Assembly (NCBI GenBank): GCA_947629715.1
Contig: CANRET010000010.1
Coordinates: forward strand, 1-46,149
DNA: 46,149 bases
Reading direction: 5' to 3'
Origin: an uncultured Akkermansia sp.
Lineage (GTDB): Bacteria; Verrucomicrobiota; Verrucomicrobiia; Verrucomicrobiales; Akkermansiaceae
Every line of letters starts with the position of its first letter. Position 1 is the first letter of the stretch. Below the pieces are notes generated by a model. That model was not told where the DNA came from. It worked only from the letters and a program-made list of their open reading frames with translations, and ran no database searches. The position numbers and the translations under genes are program-made. Below are positions 21,232 through 30,256 of the stretch, in pieces.

Positions 21232-21250
21232 TGCGTATTTGGAATACGCA
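21232..21250. repeat. Left inverted repeat of invertible segment 1
   Basis: Reads TGCGTATTTGGAATACGCA: itself an 8-bp palindrome around a TGG centre. Its 15-base core (21234-21248) is the exact reverse complement of the core of the right repeat (21390-21404), centre CCA. Homology to the second autotransporter locus begins exactly at this repeat. Confidence 0.85.
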
Positions 21251-21385
21251 TGTCAAGCCCTTATTTGATAATTTTTTCTTTTCCTTTCCAACAACTTATC
21301 AGAGACGATGGCTTCCTTTTGCAGGAAAAATTTGTTCGGTATAGTCTGATGCGACTACACATTATCAATGATTTATAAATCATCG

Positions 21386-21408
21386 GATACGTATTCCAAA
21401 TACGTATC
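21386..21408. repeat. Right inverted repeat of invertible segment 1
   Basis: A 10-bp palindrome (GATACGTATT and its complement) around a CCA centre; the core is the reverse complement of the left repeat's core. The TATCTT box starts within its right edge. Confidence 0.85.
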
Positions 21409-21484
21409 TTTTCTCCCGTGGCAGCGAAAGCAAAGATTCCAATTCGTCCGCTGCTTCATGACAAAACTCATTTTATTATACATT

Positions 21485-24400
21485 ATGAAACTCCATCTGC
21501 CTGTCATACTGTTCGCGGCTCTCATGTCCGCGATGTCTGCCCTGCCTTCCTTCGCGAAACAGGAAATTAAAGTCGATGACCAAATCATAGAAAATTGGGA
21601 CGGAAAGTTGACCCAAGACGATGAGGAATGGTTTGACGACTCAATCAATATCCGAGCTTGGAAAGAAGAGGGAGAGGAAACAAATCCGGAGGTTGTCATA
21701 GGTGATGAAGCAGGCCAGGCTCTGCAGCTGGGTGGCAATATCTCGGTGAATGTGGGGGAAGATAGCACGGTGACGGTGCATCAAGCGGGAATCGGCGTTG
21801 GGGCGCAGGGGGACAATCCTGTCAAGACAGAGATCACGGTTGATGGGGGAACGTTCAAGATGGATGGCGGAGAGCAGAGTACGCTGGGAGAAGCAAAGGT
21901 TCAGTCCAGCAAAACGGACGTTACAATTCTCGTCGAGAATGGCGGCACATTTGAAGCCGGTGAAGACACCCGCATTGGCTATTTGGGCGCAAAGTACACC
22001 GAGACTTCTCTTTCTATCACTGTGACGGGCAATGGGAGCACTTTTTCAACTGAAGGTTCCATCAGCTATATTGGGAAAGATGCAGCCGCTTGGGGAGGTC
22101 GTGCTGATCAAACTCTCACTATCCAAGTGGAAGACGGCGCCACGTTCATTTTCGGGGGAAGTTTTTTGGGAACATATGGAAGCTCAAGTTGTCAAGCTGC
22201 CGCTGATCTTAGAACTGATATTTACATTAAAGATGCGGAATTCATTTTCAAAGGGGATGGTATCATAGGCTCTGAATATCAGCAGGGTTCTATTTCCAGT
22301 AGGACGAGTCGCCATACACAAATCACGTTGCAAGGGAATGCGGTATTTGACTTGACGGAAGCGACTAGTAAGGCGCGCATTTATGGCACGTTGGTTGTGG
22401 AAGGGGGGAGCATCAAGTGCAATGCAGAAACGATTGAAGATATCCTTGGTACGAACTCGTTTGACATGCGCATTGACTCCGGGAAAGACTACGTTGGTGT
22501 GATTGATGTGGGCGGGTTACCCGGTTCCTGGCTGACCAGTGCGGATGCGGGATCTGCTGGTAATATTGTTGAGTATAGAGCAATGCGCATTAATAACGCA
22601 GGCACGACGATTACAGGCATCAAGGCAGGCACGACGCTCACTATGAGCGGTTGTGAAGTTATTTGCATTGGGTTGACAAGCGCTCGTTTCACAGATGGTG
22701 AGGCTTTTGGTGACGGCAATAGAGCTCTTTTTGAATTCCAGGGGAGAACTGGAAGGGTGAGGTTTGGTAAAGGGGGGCTCCACACGACAACATTTGTTCT
22801 CAGCGATGACATCCTCGATGTCCTTTCCAAGGAAGACGGAGATGTGGGACTCGAGATTTGGGTTACAAATGGTGAAGTTGTCAGTGGCAAGAATGATGAT
22901 TTCGAGGATATTGAAGGCATTTTCCAGATTGACGGCGGCTGGACGGTCAAAGACTGCACGGCGCAAGACGGCAAACTTACCTTAACCATCGATATGTCAA
23001 AGGTGTGGTTTGCTACCAAGCACGACGACCCGAATCACCACGGCACCTCTCATGCTGAGCTCAAGGATCTTCAGGATGCGGAGAAGGTGGTGATCGATGA
23101 GAGTACTACATTGCACGTAACGGAGGAAGGAGGTACGGTTAAGTTCCTGGAGGGCGGAAGTGATCTTTCCCTCGAAGGGAACGGCGAAGTATCCTTTGAG
23201 AATACGGATGGACTCTCATCAACGTACCGCGGCAAGCTTTCCGCTGTTGAAGATGTGGATATCCGGAAAACGGGGAAGGGAGATTTAACCCTTGCCGGCG
23301 GTATGGACGCGGCGGGCGATGTGACGATCGAAGAGGGCGAGCTCATTGTCACCGGGGAGGATAACGTCATCAGCGGTGCGCTCCGTTTCTCTGAGGATGC
23401 CGGCAAGCAGGGGACTCTGCAGGTAGATAGTGTACTCCGCTTCTTCGGAAACAGTGATCTGAGCGCCGGCAAAGGCACGATCACGGGAAGTGGCTGGCTG
23501 TATGTCGCTGAGGGAGCGAATCTGGAACTTGGAAAAGGCATAACGCTGGGGAACGAACTTTCGATGTGGGTTGATGGCAATCTCACGCTTTCTCAGAGCA
23601 CGTACAGCAGTCAGATAACTCTTACCGGTAATGGCGTTATCACGATGGGAGAGGGTTCTGATATTGGCGAGAACGTGCAGCTGGGAGAAAATATAAAGTT
23701 CCGAATCAGCGAGGACTCTGCTCAACGAGTGAATTTTTATACCGAGGATGAAGTTACTTTGCTGGATTTGAATGGTTCCCGAGAAGTGAAAGCAACAGGA
23801 GACGTTGTATTGGAAGGCAAAGGAACGTATTCGGGTTCGCTCTCATATAACAACACGGTTGCAGTACGAGGCGAATATGACCTCAGCGGCGCATCGATCA
23901 TGGGATCGTTGGACAACGGCGGAGCAGATCCTGCACAAACAGGGGCTGGCATCCTGATTTTCTCGGAAGGGAATGAAGGGACAAAAGTAACAAACGACTT
24001 GGTGCTGCGCAAGGGAGCGACCACGCGGGTCAAACTTGACTTCGGCAAGGATGACCTGTGGGAGGGAGACTCTCGAGATGTGACCGTGCTGACCGCGTCG
24101 GGCAACATCATTGTGGAGGCGGGAACCATCTTCGAGATTGAGAACCTTTCCGATGTCATCTCGGACAACCTGAGGAAAGGTGAAAAGGAAGTGTTCCTCA
24201 TGAAAGGCAAGCACGTGTTTTCCTCCGCCAGTCACTACGAAGGAGGAACAGATGGCCTCAGTGATGCAGGATCTATTGGTGGAAGCCTCGAATGCGATAC
24301 AAACGCCGAGGTGCGTCTGAGTAGCGAAATGAACTGGTTCTTCAAAAATGCTCAGATTGTGTTCCACAACAATGAAGCAGCCGTGGTAGCTTCGAGTGAA

Positions 24401-25660
24401 GAGGGAATCGCGTTGGCAGCGGAGGAGTCAGTTCCGGAAGGCCCATATATCGCGGTTCGCGTTGAGACACGCTCGGGAGAAGACATCAATAAGGTGGCGG
24501 GAAGTTCCAACGCCATAGCCGGTTCTTCCCTGCTGACGCACTACACGGAGGAGAAATTGCCCAGCGAGATTGACCCGGACGTGCGGCAGGTGATCAGTTC
24601 TCTTGGGAATGTGATCGACAGTAATTCTGCGGAAGCAAACCGCATCATGTCTGCCGTGGCGGGCAGCACGCTGACCTCACTCTCCGCCGCGCAGAGCGCC
24701 GCTCTGCGCAACCAGGAGAGTCGCGTGCGTGATCATGCCCTGCAGGCCGCACGTTTGCGCTGCCAGGGCAACGACGAGACAACGCAGCAGCAGCGTCCCT
24801 GCAAGACCACCCACGTCTGGGTGGAAGGCACGAGCTTCTTCTCCGAGCAGCACAGCCGTGGCGACGAGAGCGGCTATCGCCTCAACTCCTGGGGCGGCGC
24901 CCTGGGCATCGATGCTCAGGTGGATGCCCACTGGAGCGTGGGACTGAGCCTCGCCGCCAACTACGGCGACTTGGAGGCGCGCGCCGCCGACTACGCCAAG
25001 GGCGACTTGGACAGCTACTACGTGAGTGCATGGAGTCAGGCGAAGAACGGCCGCTGGGGCAACACGCTGCTCGCCACGGTGGGCACGAATGAGGGAGACC
25101 TCAGGCGCACGGTGAACTACGGAGGCGGCAGCTACACGGCCACGAGCAGCACGAGCGGCAGCAGCCTTGGTGCGATGTGGGAAGTTACGTATGACCTCTA
25201 CCCGGTGAAGGACAACAAGAGCAACATCATTCAACCGCTCTTCAACGTGGCTGTGCAGCACACGAGCATGGACGGCTTCAGCGAGAAGAATGCGGGGAGC
25301 GTGGGTCTCACGACGGAGAAGCAGACGCGCGACACGATGACGCTGGCATTGGGCTTGCGTTGGCTGGCGGCGATTGACTCCGCGAAGGCGGTCAACCGCA
25401 CGGTGACGACCGAGCTGCACGCGAATGTGGCGCAGGACATGGGCGACCGCCGGAGCATGGCGAACGTGGCGCTGCTAGCTGACCCGAACTACACGCAGAG
25501 CGTGTACGGGGCACGAGCAGGCAGCACGGCGTTCCAATTCGGGGCGGGCGTGAACGTGCCTGTGACGCCGAACTCGCAGCTTTATGTGAACGCGGGCGGC
25601 GAGCTGCGCAGCCACGCGAACGCATGGAACGCCGCGCTGGGCGTTCGGATGGGTTTCTGA
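21485..25660 (+). CDS. Autotransporter adhesin-like protein 1 (type V secretion)
   Basis: 1391 residues. Signal peptide 1-24 (MKLHLPVILFAALMSAMSAL then PSFA). A long Gly/Asp/Glu-rich passenger follows, with beta-helix-type strands and passenger-associated repeats (e.g. TGKGDLTLAGGMDAAGDV near residue 596). A linker (about 1057-1107) contains the shared SLSAAQSAALRNQESRVRD. A 284-residue autotransporter beta-barrel (1108-1391) ends in Phe, as expected for BAM recognition. The passenger would be displayed outside the outer membrane. The frame is open upstream to 21368, but that extension reads through the inverted repeat; the ATG at 21485 gives a proper signal peptide. The barrel is about 96 percent identical to that of the next gene while the passengers differ widely. 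Ligand unknown. Expression is probably set by the invertible segment upstream. Confidence 0.9.
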   Translation: MKLHLPVILFAALMSAMSALPSFAKQEIKVDDQIIENWDGKLTQDDEEWFDDSINIRAWKEEGEETNPEVVIGDEAGQALQLGGNISVNVGEDSTVTVHQAGIGVGAQGDNPVKTEITVDGGTFKMDGGEQSTLGEAKVQSSKTDVTILVENGGTFEAGEDTRIGYLGAKYTETSLSITVTGNGSTFSTEGSISYIGKDAAAWGGRADQTLTIQVEDGATFIFGGSFLGTYGSSSCQAAADLRTDIYIKDAEFIFKGDGIIGSEYQQGSISSRTSRHTQITLQGNAVFDLTEATSKARIYGTLVVEGGSIKCNAETIEDILGTNSFDMRIDSGKDYVGVIDVGGLPGSWLTSADAGSAGNIVEYRAMRINNAGTTITGIKAGTTLTMSGCEVICIGLTSARFTDGEAFGDGNRALFEFQGRTGRVRFGKGGLHTTTFVLSDDILDVLSKEDGDVGLEIWVTNGEVVSGKNDDFEDIEGIFQIDGGWTVKDCTAQDGKLTLTIDMSKVWFATKHDDPNHHGTSHAELKDLQDAEKVVIDESTTLHVTEEGGTVKFLEGGSDLSLEGNGEVSFENTDGLSSTYRGKLSAVEDVDIRKTGKGDLTLAGGMDAAGDVTIEEGELIVTGEDNVISGALRFSEDAGKQGTLQVDSVLRFFGNSDLSAGKGTITGSGWLYVAEGANLELGKGITLGNELSMWVDGNLTLSQSTYSSQITLTGNGVITMGEGSDIGENVQLGENIKFRISEDSAQRVNFYTEDEVTLLDLNGSREVKATGDVVLEGKGTYSGSLSYNNTVAVRGEYDLSGASIMGSLDNGGADPAQTGAGILIFSEGNEGTKVTNDLVLRKGATTRVKLDFGKDDLWEGDSRDVTVLTASGNIIVEAGTIFEIENLSDVISDNLRKGEKEVFLMKGKHVFSSASHYEGGTDGLSDAGSIGGSLECDTNAEVRLSSEMNWFFKNAQIVFHNNEAAVVASSEEGIALAAEESVPEGPYIAVRVETRSGEDINKVAGSSNAIAGSSLLTHYTEEKLPSEIDPDVRQVISSLGNVIDSNSAEANRIMSAVAGSTLTSLSAAQSAALRNQESRVRDHALQAARLRCQGNDETTQQQRPCKTTHVWVEGTSFFSEQHSRGDESGYRLNSWGGALGIDAQVDAHWSVGLSLAANYGDLEARAADYAKGDLDSYYVSAWSQAKNGRWGNTLLATVGTNEGDLRRTVNYGGGSYTATSSTSGSSLGAMWEVTYDLYPVKDNKSNIIQPLFNVAVQHTSMDGFSEKNAGSVGLTTEKQTRDTMTLALGLRWLAAIDSAKAVNRTVTTELHANVAQDMGDRRSMANVALLADPNYTQSVYGARAGSTAFQFGAGVNVPVTPNSQLYVNAGGELRSHANAWNAALGVRMGF

Positions 25661-25788: not shown

Positions 25789-25807
25789 TGCGTATTTATA
25801 ATACGTA
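25789..25807. repeat. Left inverted repeat of invertible segment 2
   Basis: Reads TGCGTATTTATAATACGTA. The 15-base core (25791-25805) has a TAT centre, unlike TGG in copy 1. It is the exact reverse complement of the right core here (25947-25961, centre ATA). Confidence 0.85.
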
Positions 25808-25943
25808 TGTCAAGCCCTTATTTGATAATTTTTTCTTTTTCTTTCCAACAACTTATCAGAGACGATAGCTCGCCTTTTGCAGAAAAATTTGTTCGGGATA
25901 GTCTGACGCGACTACACATTATCAACGATTTATAAATCATTGC

Positions 25944-25964
25944 ATACGTATTATAAATACGTAT
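25944..25964. repeat. Right inverted repeat of invertible segment 2
   Basis: A 9-bp palindrome (ATACGTATT and its complement) around an ATA centre, matching the left repeat of this locus but not those of locus 1. Confidence 0.85.
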
Positions 25965-26041
25965 CCTTTCTGCGGTGCAGCGGTAACAAAGATTTCGATT
26001 CGTCCGTTATCGCTCCGAACAAAGAACTATTCTATTTTACC

Positions 26042-29000
26042 ATGAAACTCCATTTACCGATCACATTGTTCACCGCCCTCATGGCGGTGATGGCGACTCT
26101 GCCCACCGCGTGGGCAAAAATAACCGTTAAAGAAAATATCTCAGAAAGTAAGCCTGAAGGAGACCCTGTTGAGATTACGGATGGTACTTTTGAAGGTCAA
26201 TTGGGAAAGGATTCCTCGATCAAGATTGAAAAAGAAAATGAGGAAGACGGAGATACGAGTCTGACGTTTAAGGGGGAAACTACAGATAAGGCCAGGAACG
26301 GTATAAGACGCATAGACATTGATGTCCTGCCCGAATGTTCATTCACTCTGGCCGAGGGAGGGGAACTTGGTGTCAGTGTCAGAAATGACTTCGGCAGCAC
26401 CAACACATACATAAGACTCCAAGGCGGCTCTTTTACTGTAGAAGAAGGAGCCAAGCTAGGCGGAGTGCACAGCGGAGTGGTTCTTCTGGCAAGAGTCGAT
26501 GTTCAGATGCATGGAGGCGAATTCATTGTGAATGGGAGCGTGAATGACGCTCAGGGAGGAGTAAAAAATAGCGCGCCTTCTTCTCTTAATGTCAACGTAC
26601 AGGATGGAGGCAAGTTCATTATAGGAGAAAATGCAACGGTTGGCACGACATACGATGTCAATACGACCCTTGGAGGATGGGAATACGACAAAATATGCGG
26701 CACAACCACGAGTATACTCATTAAGGATACGAGTTCTTTTGAAATGAAGGGGGGGAAGTTAGGGGTTCCCCTCTCGGCCGATACTGACAAGGGATCTGGT
26801 CACACCAACGTAAGTATAAGGTTAAGCGGTGATGCTAAAGCGATCATTTGGGGCGGAGAGATAGGAGGAAAAGGTGTTATTGGTGGCACGAACGAAGTTG
26901 CAGAAATTACCCTGTTGGAAAATGCGACACTGGAGTTCAAAGACACTGCGAACGAGAAAACTTCCCAGAATGTCACCATAAAAATGCAGGGGGGGAGGTT
27001 AGTAGGTGGAGCGAACTTTTATGGGGAAGTGGAAATTAGCGCTCTGGACACCTTTGATATGGGCGGACTTGATGCATCGAGGATAAAAAAATTGGAACTT
27101 AAATCCGCCGGGGCCACTCTGAAGAATCTCAAGGAGGGCTCTACATTAAATGCGGATGCGATGGCTGTGAATTCCACCACCATCATCATGGTAGGGAGTA
27201 AGAGCTCGAAGTTGGTTACTGGGGAAAGCAGCGGCGATGTCCTGCCCGATGGGAAAGAATGGCTCATCGGTTTCCAAGGGAACGGGGGCAACGTACAACT
27301 GGGGAAAAAGGAGATTAAGCTTGACTTCGATGCCAGAGATGGGTTACTCAGCGAACTATTGGATGATGAAGGAGACGTAAGCTTTGAGGTTTTCTTCTCC
27401 AATGCGCAGCTCATGGGGATGGAGGAAGGCGAAAATCTCTCAAAGTATTTCAGCGTTGGAGCCGGTTGGGGTGTAGATGTGAAAAATGTGACGATCACCA
27501 ATGAAGGCTGTGTGCTAACCCTTAGCGGCAACATAAGCAAATCGGTGTGGGTCGCTTCAAAGCAAGAACCGGCAGAGTCTTATCGCGGATACTCCGTAGA
27601 AAAATTTGACCGAGTGGTTATCGATAAGGATACAACGATTGAATTTCCGTCGACCATTAAGCAACTTTGCGGATCCGGCAACTTGCACCTTACCGGTAAT
27701 GGATCGGCTGAGCTTGAGAACAGGAGTGATGCTTTTCATCATGGTGATACGACCTTCTACGGAGACATCACGGTGGCCGAGGAGGGAAACCTCTCCGTTA
27801 AGAAGACAGGGGATTCCACTCTCACGCTGGCAGGCAACCTGAAGATACTCAGGGATCGAGGTTCACTCAACGTGAATGAAGGCATGCTCATATTGAAGGG
27901 CGATGACAACGTTGTAAAAAGCGGAATTAACGTGGGGCAAAGGGATTCACACGGTGTGCTGGAAGTAGAAGGGAATTTAAACACCTCAAGTATCCTTGTG
28001 AACAGCTATGATGGCAACATGCTTGTTATTGGCAAGAGTGGACACGTTACGGTCAACGAAACAATTACCTCCCTTTCAGAGTCCTGCAGTGTGCAGGTGG
28101 ACGGAGAACTCATACTATTGGGCGATCAGGACATGACGGGGAAAAACAAACCGATATTCTCCGGAACCGGCATTATTTCGATAGGCGATGGGGAGAGTGA
28201 AACAGCTCTGATCATTGATAAAGATAACTTCATCGCTGGTTCCGAAGTCAGCTTGAACGTGGCAAAGGGAGCCTCACTGAGCGTCACGGGGGATAGCTTC
28301 TCCGGCAACATCATGGGCGAGGGTAAGGTCTCCACGGAGGGAACGGTTACACTCACGGGAGATGGCTCCCTGACGGGGGAATATTCCGGCACTTTCGTTG
28401 CGGACCGTTCGGGACGCATTTTCGGTGGAAACAATCCGAATGCCGCGATCGAAGCACAAAACGGGGCCACCGTGAAACTCGAAGCGGGTTCGACTTTCAA
28501 GTCTCTGGATGCCGGGGAGGGCGAGGTCACAGGAAGCAACACCTACACCTTTACCGACAAAGATGCTGCGGGGAGCACGACCAGACATTTCTCCGGCGAC
28601 ATCGTGCTGCGCAGCGGCAACGAGTATGATATGGAGCTGGATCTGAGCAACCCGGCGCTTTGGGAGGGGAGTGGCCAGCATGAGGAAACTCTCATGCTGG
28701 ATACCCAGAAGAACATCATCATCGAAGATGGAGCCACCATCGTCTTGAACAGCATCGATAATTTGCTTGCGAAGCAAGGAGATCTCACGGGAGTTGTGCT
28801 GATGCATGGCACAGGCATCTTCCATGAGGACTATTCACAGTACAAAGTCGAAGAGGAGAGCGGTCATAATCAAGATAAATCCTTGGGGGCCGTGAATGGA
28901 GTCAACGTCAAGTTGGGAGGCATCCTCGACCTGCTCTACGAGAGAGCCGAGCTGCGGATTGTAGAAGCAGGCGATGGAGCAAGTGCGGCGAACGAACTCA

Positions 29001-30256
29001 ACGCACTCGCCGAAGTTGAGCCCAGGGCCGGTAAGACTTACGATACCATCGTCAATCTCTATCACCGCACACAGAGCAAGTTTGCTCCATACGCAACAAG
29101 CGCCAACTCCACCGCCGGTTCCAACCTGCTGTGGTTTGAGGCCGACCAGAAGGGCGTCACTATGGACGAAAGCGTGCTTGCCGTGATGAGCAGTCTGCAA
29201 CAAATGGCGGATGCAGGCGACGCGGCAGGCGTGCGCAAGGCGCTCGCGGCCGTGGCTGGCAGCACACTGACCTCACTCTCCGCCGCGCAGAGCGCGGCTC
29301 TGCGCAACCAGGAGAGTCGCGTGCGCGACCACGCCCTGCAGGCCGCACGTTTGCGCTGCCAGGGCAACGACGAGACAACGCAGCAGCAGCGTCCCTGCAA
29401 GACCACTCACGTTTGGGTGGAAGGCACGAGCTTCTTCTCCGAGCAGCACAGCCGTGGCGACGAGAGCGGCTATCGCCTCAACAGCTGGGGAGGGGCCGTG
29501 GGTCTCGATGCGCAGGTGGACGCGCACTGGAGCGTTGGACTGAGCCTTGCCGCCAACTACGGCGACCTGGAGGCGCGCGCCGCCGACTACGCCAAGGGCG
29601 ACCTGGACAGCTACTACGTGAGCGCATGGAGTCAGGCAAAGAACGGTCGCTGGGGCAACACCCTGCTCGCCACGGTGGGCACGAATGAGGGAGACCTCAG
29701 GCGCACGGTGAACTACGGAAGCGGCAGCTACACGGCCACGAGCAGCACGAGCGGCAGCAGCCTTGGCGCGATGTGGGAAGTTACGTATGATCTCTACCCC
29801 GTGAAGGACAACAAGAGCAACATCATTCAACCGCTCTTCAACGTGGCCGTGCAGCACACGAGCATGGACGGCTTCAGCGAGAAGAATGCGGGGGGCGTGG
29901 GACTCACGACGGAGAAGCAGACGCGCGACACGATGACGCTGGCGCTGGGCTTGCGTTGGCTGGCGGCGATTGAGAGCGGCAAGGCAGCCAATCGCACGGT
30001 GACGACCGAGCTGCACGCGAATGTGGCGCAGGACATGGGCGACCGCCGGAGTGAGGCGAACGTGGCGCTGCTGGCCAACCCGAACTACACGCAGAGCGTG
30101 TACGGGGCGCGCGCAGGCAGCACGGCGTTCCAGTTCGGAGCGGGAGTGAACGTGCCGGTGACGGCGAACTCGCAGCTTTATGTGAACGCGGGCGGCGAAC
30201 TGCGCAGCCACGCGAACGCATGGAACGCCGCGCTGGGCGTCCGGATGGGCTTCTGA
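26042..30256 (+). CDS. Autotransporter adhesin-like protein 2 (type V secretion)
   Basis: 1404 residues, built like its neighbour. Signal peptide about 1-25 (MKLHLPITLFTALMAVMATL then PTAWA). A ~1000-residue passenger carries acidic, glycine-rich beta-strand repeats (e.g. TGDSTLTLAGNLKILRDRGS near residue 589, a passenger-associated repeat). The linker with two cysteines (RLRCQGN...QQRPCK) is shared with protein 1. A 284-residue beta-barrel (1121-1404) ends GVRMGF. The passenger shares the overall plan with protein 1 but little sequence, so the pair offers two alternative surface structures. The ATG at 26042 is chosen over an upstream open frame starting at 25940 that crosses the inverted repeat. 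Function is likely adhesion or surface shielding; the ligand is unknown. Confidence 0.9.
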   Translation: MKLHLPITLFTALMAVMATLPTAWAKITVKENISESKPEGDPVEITDGTFEGQLGKDSSIKIEKENEEDGDTSLTFKGETTDKARNGIRRIDIDVLPECSFTLAEGGELGVSVRNDFGSTNTYIRLQGGSFTVEEGAKLGGVHSGVVLLARVDVQMHGGEFIVNGSVNDAQGGVKNSAPSSLNVNVQDGGKFIIGENATVGTTYDVNTTLGGWEYDKICGTTTSILIKDTSSFEMKGGKLGVPLSADTDKGSGHTNVSIRLSGDAKAIIWGGEIGGKGVIGGTNEVAEITLLENATLEFKDTANEKTSQNVTIKMQGGRLVGGANFYGEVEISALDTFDMGGLDASRIKKLELKSAGATLKNLKEGSTLNADAMAVNSTTIIMVGSKSSKLVTGESSGDVLPDGKEWLIGFQGNGGNVQLGKKEIKLDFDARDGLLSELLDDEGDVSFEVFFSNAQLMGMEEGENLSKYFSVGAGWGVDVKNVTITNEGCVLTLSGNISKSVWVASKQEPAESYRGYSVEKFDRVVIDKDTTIEFPSTIKQLCGSGNLHLTGNGSAELENRSDAFHHGDTTFYGDITVAEEGNLSVKKTGDSTLTLAGNLKILRDRGSLNVNEGMLILKGDDNVVKSGINVGQRDSHGVLEVEGNLNTSSILVNSYDGNMLVIGKSGHVTVNETITSLSESCSVQVDGELILLGDQDMTGKNKPIFSGTGIISIGDGESETALIIDKDNFIAGSEVSLNVAKGASLSVTGDSFSGNIMGEGKVSTEGTVTLTGDGSLTGEYSGTFVADRSGRIFGGNNPNAAIEAQNGATVKLEAGSTFKSLDAGEGEVTGSNTYTFTDKDAAGSTTRHFSGDIVLRSGNEYDMELDLSNPALWEGSGQHEETLMLDTQKNIIIEDGATIVLNSIDNLLAKQGDLTGVVLMHGTGIFHEDYSQYKVEEESGHNQDKSLGAVNGVNVKLGGILDLLYERAELRIVEAGDGASAANELNALAEVEPRAGKTYDTIVNLYHRTQSKFAPYATSANSTAGSNLLWFEADQKGVTMDESVLAVMSSLQQMADAGDAAGVRKALAAVAGSTLTSLSAAQSAALRNQESRVRDHALQAARLRCQGNDETTQQQRPCKTTHVWVEGTSFFSEQHSRGDESGYRLNSWGGAVGLDAQVDAHWSVGLSLAANYGDLEARAADYAKGDLDSYYVSAWSQAKNGRWGNTLLATVGTNEGDLRRTVNYGSGSYTATSSTSGSSLGAMWEVTYDLYPVKDNKSNIIQPLFNVAVQHTSMDGFSEKNAGGVGLTTEKQTRDTMTLALGLRWLAAIESGKAANRTVTTELHANVAQDMGDRRSEANVALLANPNYTQSVYGARAGSTAFQFGAGVNVPVTANSQLYVNAGGELRSHANAWNAALGVRMGF

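Follow-up and report, generated by a model that had tools for sequence, protein, structure and literature searches.

The systems closest to the locus described here are invertons of Akkermansia, a major mucus-dwelling gut bacterium, and invertible promoters of other bacteria. In Bacteroides, capsule and other surface genes are controlled by invertible promoters (Mpi/Tsr) in which the whole promoter lies inside the inverting segment and follows a different consensus. For A. muciniphila, Jiang et al. 2019 reportedly recognised an inverton motif, CGGATT..AATCCG. Read evidence for inversion has been published for A. muciniphila invertons, one of which (group 138) lies near two autotransporter proteins (PMC11892184), and for the cps1 switch of the same species (PMC13343947). 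In uropathogenic E. coli, the ipuS switch places an invertible promoter before the autotransporter UpaE and is flipped by tyrosine recombinases (PMC6083910).

The window analysed here is a stretch of 46,149 nucleotides from an uncultured Akkermansia sp. At positions 21232-21410 it carries an element with paired inverted CGKATTnnnAATMCG cores around a short intergenic segment, as in Akkermansia invertons. The element precedes a surface-structure gene in a direction that allows its regulation: autotransporter 1 (21485-25660, plus strand; 1391 aa), composed of a passenger and a beta-domain (PF03797, E=8.5e-40). The core of the left arm (21234-21248) reads CGTATT-TGG-AATACG (CGTATTTGGAATACG) and that of the right arm (21390-21404) CGTATT-CCA-AATACG (CGTATTCCAAATACG), both arms being palindromic in themselves, with the form CGTATT-nnn-AATACG (CGTATTnnnAATACG). 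The initial annotation had placed 15-base inverted cores at exactly these positions, and they match perfectly; the extended arms (21234-21251 and 21387-21404; 18 nt) are 94% complementary. As RNA, the arms fold into hairpins. They were considered as a terminator and rejected, as no terminator was called and the T-tract is missing in most sibling elements.

The promoter boxes claimed in that annotation are likewise both present. A TTGACA -35 box lies at the inner edge of the left arm on the minus strand (21251-21256), pointing away from autotransporter 1, and a TATCTT -10 box (21405-21410, plus strand) stands directly beyond the right arm, outside the predicted inverting segment (21241-21397, arm centre to arm centre). 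Just 5' of the -35 box is an A/T-rich tract (21257-21290, minus strand) whose A-rich columns are conserved across 33 elements and which may act like an UP element. In the assembled orientation, the -35 position upstream of TATCTT is occupied by ATCGGA. An in-silico flip between the arm centres sets TTGACA exactly 17 bp before TATCTT, as had been proposed, so that the right arm plus two flanking bases itself becomes the promoter spacer. At the level of sequence, flipping therefore changes the direction of a promoter.

We put at about 0.88 the probability that this element belongs to the Akkermansia invertons and works as a phase-variable ON/OFF switch, OFF in the assembly, with a mobile -35 and a fixed -10 box. 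The two arms would be recombined by a tyrosine recombinase whose gene lies elsewhere in the genome. This would invert 156 bp with the -35 box and its A-rich upstream tract, and leave the -10 box fixed outside, on the gene side. The flip would let transcription of autotransporter 1 begin some 70 nt ahead of its ATG; as assembled, the promoter halves lie apart and the gene would be OFF. The anatomy, the family pattern and the opposite orientations of related elements between species are observed; inversion at this particular locus, the acting recombinase, the point where transcription begins and the purpose of the switch are what we infer.

A second switch (25791-25961), absent from the initial annotation, lies 4.5 kb downstream and is 91% identical to the first. 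Its paired arms (25791-25805, centre TAT; 25947-25961, centre ATA, the reverse complement) enclose a mobile TTGACA box in the same layout (25808-25813, minus strand; predicted OFF), and a fixed TATCCT box (25962-25967, plus strand) follows beyond the right arm. It precedes autotransporter 2 (26042-30256, plus strand; 1404 aa), which also has a beta-domain. The beta-domains of the two autotransporters are 97% identical and their passengers about 30% identical. Near-identical barrels with divergent passengers in tandem suggest passenger exchange or strong diversification.

The split promoter recurs across the family. The comparison set comprised 40 paired elements, nearly all from Akkermansia, collected by exact TTGACA. 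A TANNNT box stands 17 or 18 bp past an arm in 35 of the 40, on one side only in 33, although many of the elements are orthologous and not all are independent; the chance rate of TANNNT at such spacing is about 1.8%. The side bearing TANNNT is normally that of the surface gene, and it is the same side wherever a clear signal-peptide gene start is nearby. By arrangement, 29 elements have separated boxes (OFF) and four have joined boxes (ON), with the box on both sides in two and on neither in five. A search for ON copies by the exact TTGACA-arm-TANNNT pattern at 17 bp only, which leaves 18-bp spacing outside, found none in 76 genomes; ON forms do occur among the 40 elements. The design also extends to the CGGATT..AATCCG class. 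Of 22 such elements in two complete genomes, 17 carry TTGAC on the inner edge of one arm and not of the other, and 17 have TA at the -10 position; joined and separated forms are both present. One of these genomes (G097; 2,664,102 bp) has the genome size of A. muciniphila ATCC BAA-835. The inverton beside two autotransporters that was found to change orientation in mice (PMC11892184) probably corresponds to the G097 element at 2094059-2094248, although the coordinates differ by about 1,966 bp.

The assignment of ON and OFF can be questioned even if the arms invert. A promoter inside the segment, close to the right arm, could drive the gene as it now stands, with the flip altering strength and not switching it on or off, so that the two states would be reversed or incomplete. 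The interior of the first switch does hold a weak promoter-like pair facing the gene (TTTGCA-16-TATAGT), and similar internal pairs occur in a few siblings, for example TTGAAA-17-CATTAT in L080. However, the best promoter in the separated orientation is at the level of shuffled segments over 32 elements (mean p 0.48, E. coli-type model). The joined form is the better sigma70 match in 32 of 32, with mean scores of 13.2 against 8.5 on an E. coli consensus and with the -35 half biased by the exact-TTGACA selection. We regard this alternative as unlikely. The earlier proposals that the -35 box lies inside and the -10 box outside the segment, and that the sequenced clone is OFF, thus gain support from the family at large.

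The central 3 bp of the arms bear on whether the element inverts at all. Within each element they are reverse complements (40 of 40; permutations gave 5.5 on average and never more than 15), yet they vary between elements; in the window they are TGG/CCA in the first switch and TAT/ATA in the second. Matched but locus-variable centres are the mark of a crossover overlap. Such matching is expected if an element's own arms recombine and is not expected of operators. In addition, orientation is reversed between species in three cases of orthologous elements, one of which involves the source genome (G000). There, the element on contig C53 and its counterpart G020:C64 share 140 of 141 interior positions, and their flanks match only when swapped (391 of 400). 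G016:C35 and G048:C95 show the same pattern of opposite orientation. Between G097 (692k) and G004 (848k), where the switch precedes a large MRPxLPL-type surface gene, the flanks are collinear and the interior aligns only when inverted (33 of 35). These cases are the strongest evidence for inversion in the class and, with the arm centres, they favour the invertible promoter that the initial annotation had read here. Operators for a dimeric regulator acting by looping are, by comparison, very improbable: the arms are palindromic and lie about 15 helical turns apart, as that reading would have it, but neither the co-varying asymmetric centres nor the inverted orthologues fit it.

The arm motif itself is much too frequent to be due to chance. 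The 2.2-Mb source genome holds 27 copies of CGKATTNNNAATMCG and none of a backwards control pattern. For TTGACANNCGKATTNNNAATMCG, a scan of 76 Akkermansia genomes gave 41 copies, spread over 13 of them, against none for controls. Further homologous switches lie on contigs C3 and C4 of the source genome, and all four intact autotransporter switches (two in the window, C3 and C4) have the -35 box on the gene-distal arm, in the OFF arrangement. With switches of their own at three or more sister autotransporters, the genome would hold a repertoire of variable surface proteins. Elements of the same class also precede small outer-membrane barrels (PF13505) and a family-25 glycosyltransferase (PF01755). 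A degenerate copy (G000:C1:51434-51607, L005) has no adjoining autotransporter and resembles a decayed switch. Insertion of a miniature mobile element (MITE) ahead of several genes, with the arms as its terminal inverted repeats, would account for the many copies with inverted ends and for the degenerate copy on C1, but it is just as improbable as operators, since homology among paralogs continues past the right arm into coding sequence, the centres of the two arms change together, spacing is near-constant and the -10 side faces the gene. Both readings were rejected.

Across the genus, the phase-variable switches appear to form a class of dozens, found also in Akkermansia MAGs from 'Lapin' (French: rabbit) samples. 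No block is more strongly conserved across the family than GCTTGACATA, at the mobile -35 box. In two related elements (L014, G042:C4; L015, G046:C14) the arms are about 600 bp apart because of extra sequence inside the segment. Scans of genome and viral contigs gave many unpaired single matches outside Akkermansia, which were regarded as chance.

Other members in the source genome show further variety. One element (G000:C87:2694-2866, L169), with a TTGACG variant and a TACCCT -10 box, stands before an HsdM-type methylase gene, which suggests a phase-variable type I restriction-modification system. At G000:C15:29187-30294 (L070), two small OMP barrel genes each have a complete switch in front of them, the two switches being separated by 0.94 kb; the arm centres of these switches differ (CTG and GCA), as in the tandem pair of the window. 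Contigs C63, C102 and C103 stop at an arm or no more than about 110 bp from one, perhaps because assembly failed there on mixed orientations or on repeats. At G000:C2:85218-85982, an autotransporter beta-domain lies in a 5368-aa open frame, a giant surface protein.

Candidate enzymes are present. The source genome has 15 Phage_integrase (PF00589) loci, none of them on the contig of the window. Members of 320-360 aa directly adjoin elements of the same class, and for some of them an arm lies just a few bases upstream of the start codon. Contigs C12, C18, C51, C53, C96 and C102 (L157, L159, L164, L167, L168 and L071) encode several tyrosine recombinases, near-identical proteins of 333 aa and relatives of these, and most of them adjoin an arm of the class; box II of this group reads DVLRHTFA, with Asp at the usual HxxR His position. 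As recombinases lie beside sibling elements and the window has none, action in trans is probable, and the element-adjacent 320-360-aa members are probably the natural candidates for the orphan autotransporter switches. The published work examined identifies no recombinase for this inverton class.

A broader proposition can be offered only tentatively, and we consider it rather less probable than its negation: that throughout Akkermansia the recombination site is the promoter spacer. Because one site would serve both purposes, recombinase and RNA polymerase would compete for the same DNA, and transcription would feed back on switching. The 3-bp centre would be a private address that keeps neighbouring switches, such as the tandem pairs of the source genome, from recombining with one another. 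ON and OFF would be readable from assemblies, and the surface state of strains and metagenomes would become predictable. Such a rule would also place the autotransporter repertoire, in which barrels are nearly identical and passengers diverge, under a simple switch.

Our literature search found no paper describing a split invertible promoter, although Jiang 2019 may already note such a design. The Bacteroides Mpi/Tsr systems are alike in that multiple surface loci are switched through short inverted repeats, and they differ in promoter consensus and in enclosing the whole promoter. The ipuS switch shares an invertible promoter element before an autotransporter and the use of tyrosine recombinases; unlike the present switch, it has 7-bp repeats and a 260-bp element that contains both promoter and start site (PMC6083910). 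The A. muciniphila invertons are alike in genus, arm layout (6-bp half sites, 3-bp centre), segment length (150-320 bp) and position upstream of surface genes including autotransporters, and the split of -35 and -10 boxes is visible in the CGGATT class. They differ in their arms (CGGATTnnnAATCCG, against mostly CGTATTnnnAATACG here), in a -10 box further from consensus than the TANNNT of the present class, and in the make-up of the spacer (1+15+1 bp, against 2+15). Akkermansia invertons of such arm layout, one of them near autotransporters, are thus already known (PMC11892184, PMC13343947). The newer part is the split rule, in which the -35 half alone is mobile and the arm serves as promoter spacer.
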